64,000 bases of DNA from Gemmatimonadales bacterium. Its GTDB lineage: Bacteria > Gemmatimonadota > Glassbacteria > GWA2-58-10. Positions 1,306 to 60,542 of this stretch are shown piece by piece; positions within the stretch are counted from its first letter, which is position 1; each line of letters begins with the position of its first letter. The DNA is taken from contig JAJRTS010000110.1 of the NCBI GenBank assembly GCA_024278175.1, positions 1-64,000 on the forward strand, given 5' to 3'. A model generated the notes under the pieces. That model saw only the letters and a list, made by a program, of their open reading frames with translations, made no database searches and was not told the origin of the DNA. The position numbers were made by a program, and so were the translations under genes.

Positions 1306-1520
1306 CTAGCAGCGTGTTGAAATATCCGAAAGTACGGGCATATGGTTGTCAAGGGCCGTTTCTCGCCATGCCGGCTCAAAACGGTTATAGAGATGCAACT
1401 GCTGATATATCATAAGTAACAGGACCGGCAAAAGAAACGGCTTGTCTTGCCCTCGATAACTTGCCCGGGCGAAATAGTTTATTCAAGGGCGTTGAATGCT
1501 TTATTTCAGCGCCCATCTAG
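1306..1520 (+). mobile_element. CTAG-ended miniature element, copy A (family 1)
   Basis: About 215 bp bounded by CTAG at 1306-1309 and at 1517-1520. The left end reads CTAGCAGCGTGTTGAAATA and the right end, on the other strand, reads CTAGATGGGCGCTGAAATA. The interior carries the stretch GTAACAGGACCGGCAAAAG and a terminal hairpin built on GGGCGTTGAA. Copy B (33486-33704, opposite strand) matches along its whole length; copy C (38529-38657) lacks the middle. The right CTAG contains the TAG stop of the lactate permease gene. There is no coding potential, so transposition would have to be in trans. CTAG fits the YTAR target preference of many IS5-type elements. Confidence 0.75.
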
Positions 1521-3181
1521 AGCTTGATTCCGAAACCGATAGCGATCAGGATAAAACCCAGCGCTGCCGCCATGATCAGATAATAGGCCAGGGGGATGAG
1601 CGTTTTGCGGATAATCTCTCCCTCCCTGTCCATCAGGCCCACCACGGCTGCGGCGGCCACCACGTTGTGCACGGTGATCATGTTGCCCGCGGCTCCGCCT
1701 ACCGCCTGCAGCGCCACGATTACCGACTGAGACACGCCGATCCTGGTGGCTACCCCGTACTGAAACAGGGCGAACATCATATTGCTGATCGTGTTGCTGC
1801 CGGCGATAAATGCTCCCAGGGCTCCAATAACGGCGGCAAAACCCGTCCAGGTGTTCCCGGCCAGGTCGGCTACTCCGGCGGCCAGTTCCATGGGCATGCT
1901 CTCCAGGCCGCTGGTGTTGACGCCCGAGTTGATGAACACTCTGACCATGGGGATGGCAAATCCCAGGGCGAAAGCTGCTTTTACCGATGTCCTGGCGGCT
2001 GTGACGGTAGCACGCCCCAGTTCACCCGGCCGCATCTTCTGGATAAAAAAGGTGCATAACACGGCCAGGACAAAAATAAAACCGGGCAGATAGAGCGGCT
2101 GGACAGCGGCGCTGATGCCGGTGCCCAGGATATTCTCCAGCCGGATCGTCCAAGCCGTGAGGATGAATTTGAAGACCGGCACTGTGCGGCTGAGTACCAG
2201 GAACAGGCCCACCAGCACATATGGGATCCAGGCCTTGAACATGGTCATCCCGGGTCGCTCCTGGCCCACCTCGACACTATAAGTGCCCGACCACTCCGGC
2301 TCCCACTGCTCTTTTTCGGCAAAATCCCACGGTTCCCTGGGGGTCAGAAAATTGTTTTTGGCGGCAATTACGATGATCCCCAGGCCGATCAGTCCCCCCA
2401 CCAGCGAGGGGAACTCCGGGCCCAGGAAGTAAGCCAGCAGCACATAGGGCACGCACAGGGCCAGCCCGGCAAGAATGGCGAACGGGGCTGCTTCCAACCC
2501 CTTGGCAATGGATTTCTCTTTGCCGAAAAAGCGTGTTAGTGTCACCGAGAGAAACAGAGGGATCAGCACTCCAATGATCCCGTGCATAATTGCCACGTTC
2601 CAGCCGATCGCCTTGACGTAATCCATGTACGGCATTCCGACACTGGCCAGGGCTTCTTTCACAACCGGGTTATCCAGGCCCGTGTGCACTCCCAGCAGGA
2701 TAGGGGTACCGGCGCCGCCAAAAGACACCGGAGTACTCTGGATGATCAGCGCCATGGTCACCGCGGCCATGGCCGGAAACCCGAGGGCCATCAGCAGGGG
2801 AGCGGCCACGGCTGCCGGAGTGCCGAAACCGGCGGCCCCTTCGATAAATGCGCCGAACATCCAGGCGACGATCATGGCCTGGACCCGCCTGTCCGGTGAT
2901 ATGTTGATGAATCCCCGGCGAATGGTGTTCACCGCGCCGCTGTTGATCAGCGCGTTGAGCATCAGTAGCGCACCGAAAATGATCCATAGTATCGAGGCCG
3001 TAACCACCAGTCCCTGAATGATCGACGCCACCACTAGCTTACCGGACACTCCCCAGACCGCCATCGCCAGTATCGACGTGACCGCCAGGGCCAGCGGCAT
3101 CGTCTTTTTCGCGGGCAGACGGAAAACCACCAGGAATACGAATACGGTAACTATAGGAGTCAGGGCCAGTAGCGGGTACAA
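1517..3181 (-). CDS. lldP: L-lactate permease family transporter
   Basis: 554 aa polytopic inner-membrane protein of the LctP/LldP family (lactate or glycolate:proton symport). Roughly a dozen hydrophobic helices run end to end, with family stretches such as [20 protein letters not shown] (about residue 108) and [14 protein letters not shown] near residue 462. The frame starts at TTG with AAAGGA nine bases upstream; a nearby ATG is out of frame. No lactate dehydrogenase or lld regulator is adjacent, so the substrate rests on family only. The gene ends TAG, and that TAG lies inside the CTAG end of mobile element copy A. A perfect palindrome (3238-3267) sits 57 bases upstream of the start. Confidence 0.9.
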
Positions 3182-7372: not shown

Positions 7373-7614
7373 AATTATATAGCAGATCCGGCCAACCGGC
7401 TATTAAAAATTGCGGTGTGTCCACGGTTGGCAGCGTGTCGAAAAAAACGGGGGGCATGGGAAGTTAGCTACCAGGGGTACGCCGGAAGCTGATTCACCTG
7501 CCTTTGACGGCAAAAAAACTCAGGTTTTTTCGCAGCTTTACAGCCGGGAAAGATGTTGACTGTGAGCGGGCTTTGTCGCTTAGTGGTTGTACGGCTTGTC
7601 CCGATCTGGCACCA
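7373..7614. other. Intergenic region without recognisable features
   Basis: About 240 bases between the small element and the terminator of the secreted-protein gene. No gene, RNA or clear regulatory site could be supported here. Confidence 0.5.
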
Positions 7615-33485: not shown

Positions 33486-33704
33486 CTAAAGGGGCGTTGA
33501 AATAAAGACATTCAACGCCCTATGGTGAAAAATTTCGTTTGTTCGGTTGTCAAGGGCAAGGCAAGCCGTTTCTTTTGCTGATCCTGTTACTTATGTTATA
33601 TCAAACCGTTGCGTCGCTCGAACTGTTTTGGACCGGCCTGGCTGGAAACGGCCCTTGACAACCTTCATTCCCATTCTTCGTATATTTCAACACGCTTCTT
33701 CTAA
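33486..33704 (-). mobile_element. CTAG-ended miniature element, copy B (family 1)
   Basis: About 215 bp, inverted relative to copy A and matching it along its whole length, including GTTGTCAAGGGCCGTTTC, GCAAAAGAAACGGCTTG and the GGGCGTTGAATG end hairpin. Both sides carry TTCTAA (33484-33489 and 33699-33704); on the minus strand TTAGAAG is repeated, a clear target duplication. The right-hand CTAA contains the TAG stop codon of the GH20 gene. No coding frame. Confidence 0.75.
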
Positions 33705-35266
33705 GGCTTCCCGTAATATTCGACCCCCAGCAATTCCAGCCGCGCGTGGTGCGAGTCCAGGCGCCGGGCGAAATCCGGCCAGTTTCGTTGTCCGCCAGCG
33801 CTCCAGCCCACCTCGGCCAGGGCGATCAGGCGCGGAAAAATCTGGATATCAGTCGCGGCCTGGTTGACCGCGATATGAGTCCACATGTTCCCCTGAACGC
33901 CGAGGATATGTTTGTGGAATTCCGGTTCCAGTTCGGCGGGGATCGGCTCGTAGGAGTAGGCTTTTTCAACGGAAATCGTCCGGTGGTCGTAGTCCAGATA
34001 GCAATGACTGGTGGGCGACATCACCACGTCGTGACCCATTCTGGCCGCGGCGACCCCGCCCTTGATTCCCCGCCAGGACATCACTGTTGCCTCGGGCGCG
34101 AGACCGCCTTCGAGGATCTCGTCCCAGCCGATAAGCTGTTTGCCGCGTGAATTGAGAAATTTTTCGATACGGCGGATGAAGTAGCTCTGTAGCCCGTCCT
34201 CGTCTTTCAAACCCTCATCCCTGATCCTGGCCTGGCACTCAGGGCACTCGCGCCAGTTGTCCTTGGGGACCTCATCGCCCCCAACGTGGACGTAGCGGGT
34301 GGGAAAGAGCTCCACCACCTCGTCCAGCACGTTGCGCAGAAAGCGGAACGTTTCCTCCCTGCCGGCACAGAAAACGTTGCGCTGGATGTTCGTCCCCTTG
34401 AAAAAGGGATAGATCTCGAACGGGCCGCCTGTGCAGGAAAGCTCGGGATAAGCCGCAAGGGCGGCCAGGCTGTGGCCGGGCATTTCGATTTCCGGGATGA
34501 TAGTCACCGCGCGGCTCCGGGCGTAGCTGATCAGGCGCTTCATTTCCTCTTTTGTATAGAATCCGCCCCTCTTGCGGTATTGGGGCGGAAATTCGGCGCC
34601 GATTTCCGTGAGCCGTGGATATTGATCGATCTGCAGCCGCCACCCCTGGTCGTCGGTCAGGTGCAGATGCAGCACGTTCATCTTGTAGAGCGAGAGCAGG
34701 TCGATAATCTTTTCCAGGTAGGAGACCGGCTGAAATGTGCGGCTGCAGTCCAGCAGCAGCCCGCGCCAGGCGAACCGGGGGCTGTCCTCGATTTTAAGGT
34801 GAGGGATCATCCAGGCGGCGAGGGCTGTCTCGCCGTTCTCGATTGTGCTGGGCAATAATTGGCGCAGAGTCTGTATTCCGTAGAAAATCCCGGCGGCTGC
34901 CGATCCCCGGATACTCACTCCGCCGTGGTCGGCCACAAGTTGGTAGCCCTCGCTCCCCAGGCGTTCCAGCGAAGGGTCCAGGCTTAATATTACCGGGCTG
35001 CCGGAGGACGTTTCCGGCACAGCTTCCCGGACCTCGATTACAGCGCCGCTGGCATCGGAAAGCAGCGACGCCACATATTCCCCCAGCTCGCGCGTTGCGG
35101 GTTCAACCTTAACAACCGAGCCGATAGAGAGCCGCACCACACCGCCGGTAAGCTCTACAGAGGCCGGCTCGGGGATGATATTCAGGCCGGATTCGGCGCT
35201 CGCCGCCGGCATGATAGCGAGCAGGAAGCTGATTGCAATCAGGGGCGCCGAGTGCGTAATTTTCAT
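33701..35266 (-). CDS. Secreted beta-N-acetylhexosaminidase (GH20)
   Basis: 521 aa from MKITHSAPL (AAGGAG upstream), signal peptide ending AASA. An N-terminal GH20b domain (about 25-150) is followed by the TIM barrel: FAWRGLLLDCSRTFQPVSYL, LHLHLTDDQGWRLQI and the catalytic Asp-Glu pair in YVHVGGDEVPKDNW (about 310). It releases terminal GlcNAc or GalNAc by substrate-assisted catalysis, in the periplasm or outside. The frame stays open 53 codons upstream and there encodes a second hydrophobic leader (MFLIVFFLLFIGLSTATKQA) that could be an alternative start. The stop lies within the duplicated target site of mobile element copy B. Confidence 0.92.
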   Translation of the reverse strand: MKITHSAPLIAISFLLAIMPAASAESGLNIIPEPASVELTGGVVRLSIGSVVKVEPATRELGEYVASLLSDASGAVIEVREAVPETSSGSPVILSLDPSLERLGSEGYQLVADHGGVSIRGSAAAGIFYGIQTLRQLLPSTIENGETALAAWMIPHLKIEDSPRFAWRGLLLDCSRTFQPVSYLEKIIDLLSLYKMNVLHLHLTDDQGWRLQIDQYPRLTEIGAEFPPQYRKRGGFYTKEEMKRLISYARSRAVTIIPEIEMPGHSLAALAAYPELSCTGGPFEIYPFFKGTNIQRNVFCAGREETFRFLRNVLDEVVELFPTRYVHVGGDEVPKDNWRECPECQARIRDEGLKDEDGLQSYFIRRIEKFLNSRGKQLIGWDEILEGGLAPEATVMSWRGIKGGVAAARMGHDVVMSPTSHCYLDYDHRTISVEKAYSYEPIPAELEPEFHKHILGVQGNMWTHIAVNQAATDIQIFPRLIALAEVGWSAGGQRNWPDFARRLDSHHARLELLGVEYYGKP

Positions 35267-35436
35267 CCCGTCTGCTCCTTGTTCTTTGGTTGAAAACAGC
35301 GTGGGGCCGCGCGAGCCGGTCATGATTCCCAATTGGCGGGGAAGGGACGAGGCGGTCTGTGCTTCAGCCTGCTTCGTCGCGGTAGACAATCCTATGAAAA
35401 GCAAAAAGAACACGATTAAGAACATGATAAAAAGAC

Positions 35437-38528: not shown

Positions 38529-38657
38529 CTGAAAGCGGCTTGAAATAAAACGAATAGCATAACCGGTAAAAGAACGGCTTGTCTTGCCCTTGACAACCAA
38601 GCGAGCGAAATTTTTCATTCCATGGCGTTGAATGTCTTTATTCCAACGCCCCTCTAG
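38529..38657 (+). mobile_element. CTAG-ended miniature element, copy C, internally deleted (family 1)
   Basis: Left end AAGCGGCTTGAAATA (about 38533), right end ending CTAG at 38654-38657 after TTCCAACGCCCCT. It shares AGAACGGCTTGTCTTGCC and GGCGTTGAATGTCTTTATT with copies A and B but lacks about 90 bases of their middle. CTGA on the left and CTAG on the right are an imperfect target duplication. It lies in the divergent region between the DUF4832 lipoprotein and bacteriohemerythrin genes; the rest of that 360-base gap shows no gene. Confidence 0.65.
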
Positions 38658-60297: not shown

Positions 60298-60542
60298 CGG
60301 GCGCCTCGCGGGACGATTGAGAATTTTTATCCGGGAACCAGTGTGTGCTTGGAAGCTGTTTCATAACTGGATTTTATTTTAGTTTTCGCCCGTTGCCGGT
60401 CAATCCCTAAAAACACACCCCTGTTTTCCCCTTTACCCAAGGGGGACTAAAACCGCATAATCCCAGCCAATATGGTAAAATACAGAGGCCTGCCAATCCA
60501 TATATAACACGCGACCAAGCAGATAGAAACATGCGCCGCGTT
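60298..60542. other. Spacer between the amidase and dockerin-bearing lyase genes
   Basis: About 245 bases. No gene, repeat or clear terminator. The amidase's GAGGCG ribosome-binding site lies at its left end. Confidence 0.4.

Follow-up and report, generated by a model that had tools for sequence, protein, structure and literature searches.

A miniature element family with a YTAR target often lies at, or just beyond, gene stop codons in a Gemmatimonadales genome

In a 64,000-nucleotide stretch of a Gemmatimonadales bacterium genome (hereafter the window), two gene stop codons lie within the target-site copies that bound a short repeat. This raises the question of whether a mobile element seeks stop codons as landing sites or is merely tolerated there. 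The element occupies positions 1306-1520 (copy A, both CTAG included) and recurs in opposite orientation at 33486-33704 (copy B). Two minus-strand genes, lldP and a GH20 gene, end in a TAG (1517-1519 and 33701-33703, respectively) placed inside the outer target copy of copy A and of copy B, and open reading frames and Pfam matches (Lactate_perm and Glyco_hydro_20) agree on both, as an earlier note made from the letters alone had described. That note proposed that the family prefers stop codons, where duplication of the target restores the stop. The features are collected in Table 1.

Table 1. Features of the three element copies in the window and of the lldP gene
Feature	Position	Strand	Basis
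Target duplication, outer copy (CTAG), copy A	1306..1309	.	Sequence; family-wide statistics of target duplications; single CTAG in empty orthologous site
Copy A body, CAGCGTGTTGAAATA...TATTTCAGCGCCCAT	1310..1516	+	nhmmer score 187; alignment to copy B
Inner inverted repeat, left arm GGTTGTCAAGGGCCGTTTC, copy A	1344..1362	+	Sequence; consensus fold
Inner inverted repeat, right arm GAAACGGCTTGTCTTGCCCTCGATAACT, copy A, with asymmetric bulge	1434..1461	+	Sequence; consensus fold
Terminal hairpin GGGCGTTGAA...TTTCAGCGCCC, right end of copy A	1487..1514	+	Sequence; consensus pairs
Target duplication (CTAG) with lldP TAG stop (1517-1519, minus)	1517..1520	.	Open reading frame; Pfam Lactate_perm; empty site in G001
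lldP, L-lactate permease gene, intact	1517..3181	-	Pfam PF02652 1.4e-107; ortholog 95% identical in same-genus genome
Target duplication (CTAA), copy B, far side	33486..33489	.	Sequence
Copy B body, with 3 extra bases (CTT, 33698-33700) beside the stop	33490..33700	-	nhmmer score 226; own-genome search
Target duplication (CTAA) with GH20 TAG stop (33701-33703, minus)	33701..33704	.	Open reading frame 33701-35425 minus; Pfam GH20
Third copy, 5'-truncated, between two genes and off-stop; intact right end CTAG 38654-38657	38534..38657	+	nhmmer score 103, E 1.7e-30; sequence

Copies A and B align over their whole length, and a search of the genome with copy B as the query gave 41 matches and recovered copy A at 80% identity (E 2.4e-42). 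Chance resemblance is excluded by the core GTTGTCAAGGGCCGTTTCCCGC, which with up to 3 mismatches occurs at 99 sites in the 4.18 Mb genome, compared with 0 sites for a reversed control pattern. A profile built from 30 copies and searched on 743 kb of sequence, mostly stretches of 8 kb around the core sites and including the window's contig, returned 124 hits, 97 of them near full length (~207-216 bp), so the dispersed miniature family suspected from two copies does exist. The mean pairwise identity among 79 copies is 76%, with a range from 64 to 99% which indicates that the family holds both young and old members. Diverged relatives are present in three genomes of the same taxonomic family (G001, which belongs to the same genus, G002 and G003), where the two ends are best conserved and the middle is more variable. 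Two further members of this family and 55 genomes from elsewhere in the phylum gave no match. The exact 24-base core is absent from 84,980 genomes and viral contigs, the exact end CTAGCAGCGTGTTGAAAA does not occur in the viral contigs, a distant blastn search against plasmids gave no match, and Rfam places no family within the window. The element is a real, family-restricted MITE, ordinary in kind and apparently undescribed so far.

The ends of this MITE define its target. Both ends can be read in 90 copies, which begin [YTAR](A/C)AGCGTGTTGAAATA on the left and finish TATTTCAACGCCCCT[YTAR] on the right, and the termini (A/C)AGCGTGTTGAAATA and AGGGGCGTTGAAATA form imperfect terminal inverted repeats. 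The 4-mers to the left and right of the element are identical in 27 of these 90 copies, against 7.3 expected, and where YTAR stands on both sides 25 of 35 pairs are identical against 9.4 expected, a number that none of 10,000 permutations reached. This agreement corresponds to a 4-bp duplication of a YTAR target, the motif published for IS5 (PMC10359306), and bears out the target assigned in the earlier note; in the flanks of the 90 copies no recognition is visible beyond YTAR. The 7-bp duplication TTAGAAG previously read at copy B is an outlier in a family that duplicates 4 bp, and the status of its extra AAG is ambiguous, since the flank on the right forms a short palindrome starting TTAGAAGCG, like the element's own AAGCG start.

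Several other repeats were observed beside or near these elements. The segment 33438-33489 of the window, adjoining copy B, contains the REP-like hairpin CCGCCACATCCTTGTGGCG together with a short palindrome (TTAGAAGCGTACCCGCAATAACACGCTTCTCAG, minus strand) whose start is the TTAG of copy B; related hairpins recur in L181 and L121. Two 31-bp palindromes (L121:4307-4337 and L168:2502-2532), TTAGAAGCGTGTTGAAAAAACACGCTTCTAA and a CTAG variant of it, consist of little beyond two element ends with YTAR on both sides and are possible solo ends or minimal remnants of the element. A common flank running up to CACATAG was found at five contig ends (L093:1-125, L151:1-206, L180:1-99, L185:1-134 and the end of L115), where it adjoins the terminus CAG(C/T)GTGTTG of an element or palindrome copy that differs from one contig end to the next; a further repeat thus seems to attach specifically to this terminus. 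A candidate second family of short elements, with similar ends (CGTGTTGAAAAA), a similar layout and, in some copies, a GCTGTCAAGGG-type core, is present in the window at 7432 (+) and 23096 (-) and at L076:7312 and L184:2506.

Orthologous sites in G001 show how the stops were kept. The lldP ortholog of this genome, 95% identical, ends AAGCTCTAGAACATAG and is followed directly by what lies in the window beyond the far CTAG, so that the empty site for copy A has one CTAG, which is the lldP stop. The same holds further along the contig for the copy at 72222-72438, whose empty site in G001, CGCTCTAGGG, again has one CTAG that serves as the stop; a hairpin-plus-T-run sequence follows this site on the element's far side. 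The single CTAG at both empty sites agrees with preservation of the stop through duplication of the target, as had been proposed. For the remaining stop-codon copies no clean empty site was recovered, the alignment halting at the gene end or the target differing, and copy B gains no empty site from G001, where the GH20 relative is 69% identical and differs in its 3' end. Empty sites of this kind also bear on the class of the element. Nested palindromes, an intergenic location and the further short palindromes of the genome would suit an extragenic palindrome of the REP or ERIC kind, dispersed by some other route such as a REP-associated tyrosine transposase. The clear 4-bp YTAR duplications and the empty sites holding one target copy make this origin highly improbable, as neither would be expected from REP elements that single-strand Y1 transposases disperse.

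Whether stop codons are preferred was addressed by counting copies against the YTAR sites available, using 609 genes (82% coding) that a custom, simple codon-usage caller predicted in the retrieved stretches. A gene stop falls exactly in the outer 4-base target of 16 of the 90 copies, copy B being a 17th that is shifted by its 3 extra bases. When intergenic YTAR sites and those at stops are pooled, stops account for 8.9%, so 16 in 90 is a two-fold excess (binomial p = 0.008), and this excess, along with the stops kept in the orthologs, is what speaks for a transposition machinery that favors the stop codons of genes for safe landing. The rate per site, however, does not support such a preference: stops hold 0.16 copies for each YTAR site available (16/98), compared with 0.27 (10/37) at 0-10 bp downstream of genes, 0.20 (10/51) at 11-30 bp and 0.15 (9/60) at 31-60 bp, and the rate at stops is no higher than in the adjacent 0-30 bp (odds ratio 0.72, Fisher p = 0.47). 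Rates drop to 0.06 at 61-120 bp downstream and 0.02 beyond, and lie at 0.03-0.12 near 5' ends, although the far-intergenic values may be lowered by genes that the home-made caller misses, an effect from which the comparison of stops with the next 30 bp should suffer much less. What is enriched is the vicinity of gene 3' ends, as copies within 60 bp of a 3' end outnumber those within 60 bp of a 5' end relative to the sites available (odds ratio 2.3, p = 0.0035), and it is because of this closeness to gene ends that stops show a two-fold excess.

With around 80% of the copies off-stop and no recognition in the flanks other than YTAR, we regard active targeting of stop codons as very unlikely, and searches of the literature on MITEs, IS5 and insertion sequences in connection with stop codons listed no paper described as reporting it. 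The preference suggested in the earlier note is not borne out by the distances of the copies to stops, since stops are not favored over adjacent sites, and its count of two copies out of two at stops holds for the full-length copies of the window only, the third, 5'-truncated copy being off-stop. Regeneration of the stop follows from the YTAR target, and safe landing on stops results from this target together with tolerance near gene ends.

The bias toward gene 3' ends could also have a functional origin, if the copies were kept as a 3'-UTR or RNA element whose fold protects or terminates the transcripts of upstream genes. The consensus has a predicted fold of -75.6 kcal/mol, formed by a long stem, in which GGTTGTCAAGGGCCGTTTC would pair with GAAACGG...CCCTTGACAACC around a 9-base bulge, and by a terminal hairpin on the right. 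With RNAalifold, 79 copies yielded fragmentary structure only, and pairs were therefore scored against the consensus fold. They are kept in 86% of cells, compared with 43-52% in slid controls; within the terminal hairpin, the consensus pairs 178-205 to 187-196 are paired in 91-100% of the 79 copies, and one subfamily of 17 copies carries a paired change from T-A to C-G at consensus positions 52/127. The double changes (92), on the other hand, are within the range of the slid controls (32-135), which means that covariation is not demonstrated. A predicted fold kept in this way is expected of a palindromic transposon and is no proof of an RNA function. The earlier suggestion that the hairpin end might become the 3' end of the gene's transcript found no support either, as no intrinsic terminator-like site lies inside copy A. 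Copies are moreover present in both orientations, many of them upstream of genes, and the fold is accounted for by the palindrome of the MITE. We therefore consider it very unlikely, if slightly less so than stop targeting, that the copies serve transcripts in this way, or that a conserved RNA fold would act as a portable 3'-UTR structure placed past stops in a family partly domesticated at gene ends.

For the source of movement we searched for an IS with the same ends. No full-length IS bounded by exactly AGCGTGTTGAAA was found in the genome itself or in G001, G002, G003 and G005, in a search for pairs of this end at IS spacing with 0-1 mismatch, from which a draft assembly may hide a collapsed IS; the full IS anticipated by the earlier note was thus not recovered from these five genomes. 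As for candidate parents, matches to DDE_Tnp_1 (PF01609) lacked the element's ends, and PF13340 gave no match. The genome does hold a resident multi-copy IS, seen as an 81-aa C-terminal transposase fragment at the ends of three contigs, which matches the NCBIfam model transpos_IS5_3 (NF033580) with E 3e-18 and 66.3 bits, below the curated full-length cut-off of 110. This IS5-family IS ends at YTAR with AAGCTGTTTCATAA, and (YTAR)AAGCTGTTTCATAA ends were noted at 60349-60366 of the window and in L164, L166 and L167, several of them at contig ends. Elsewhere in the genome, several pairs of AAGCTGTTTCATAA ends at a spacing of roughly 150-400 bp look like short derivatives, and an IS5-type system making short elements at YTAR appears to be present in this genome. 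The ends of our element are similar, not identical, to those of the resident IS, and we infer that it was moved by a related IS, either lost or unassembled. Its assignment to the IS5 type is based on the target and the resemblance of the ends.

Taken together, the lack of any gene, the nested inverted repeats and the strong predicted fold point to an IS5-like MITE, and we hold it to be very probable that the family is a non-autonomous MITE of IS5 type with a YTAR target, kept by tolerance at gene 3' ends and without any seeking of stops. The MITE measures ~207-211 bp, carries no gene and combines imperfect terminal inverted repeats with nested internal ones. It would be mobilized in trans by an IS5-type DDE transposase, whose cleavage at YTAR would lead to duplication of these 4 bp. 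Selection after insertion would then keep the least harmful copies, mainly those up to ~60 bp past gene 3' ends, and this selective loss would be the cause of the 3'-end bias. Where an in-frame TAG or TAA stop is preceded by Y, an insertion would leave the gene unchanged, because YTAR is palindromic and contains TAR; stops would accordingly be one of several tolerated sites and not a sought target. The family thereby offers a worked example of how a palindromic YTAR target can make some stops neutral landing sites without targeting. Had stop-seeking been true, it would have amounted to a new safe-site strategy, but the genome-wide count does not show it.

Compared with known systems, the element comes closest to the IS5 group of the IS5 family and the MITEs derived from it, which it resembles in its YTAR target, its 4-bp duplication and its short imperfect terminal inverted repeats, but it has no internal transposase and its terminal repeats differ in sequence from the AAGCTGTTTCATAA of the resident IS5-family IS. 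IS5 itself is biased to intergenic, AT-rich targets (PMC11677980). The Correia/NEMIS and RUP MITEs, the latter with 108 copies (PMC2229807), are likewise small, non-coding and mostly intergenic, with terminal inverted repeats, target duplications and many copies, whereas our element has a different sequence, has YTAR where they have a TA-type end motif, and contains nested internal repeats with a hairpin at one end. MITEAba12 is also a non-autonomous, IS-derived element with target duplications, and differs in its 113 bp, its 9-bp duplications and its ends, which are matched to those of the resident ISAba12 (PMC6382973). To these known bacterial MITEs the present work adds an apparently undescribed, family-restricted one.
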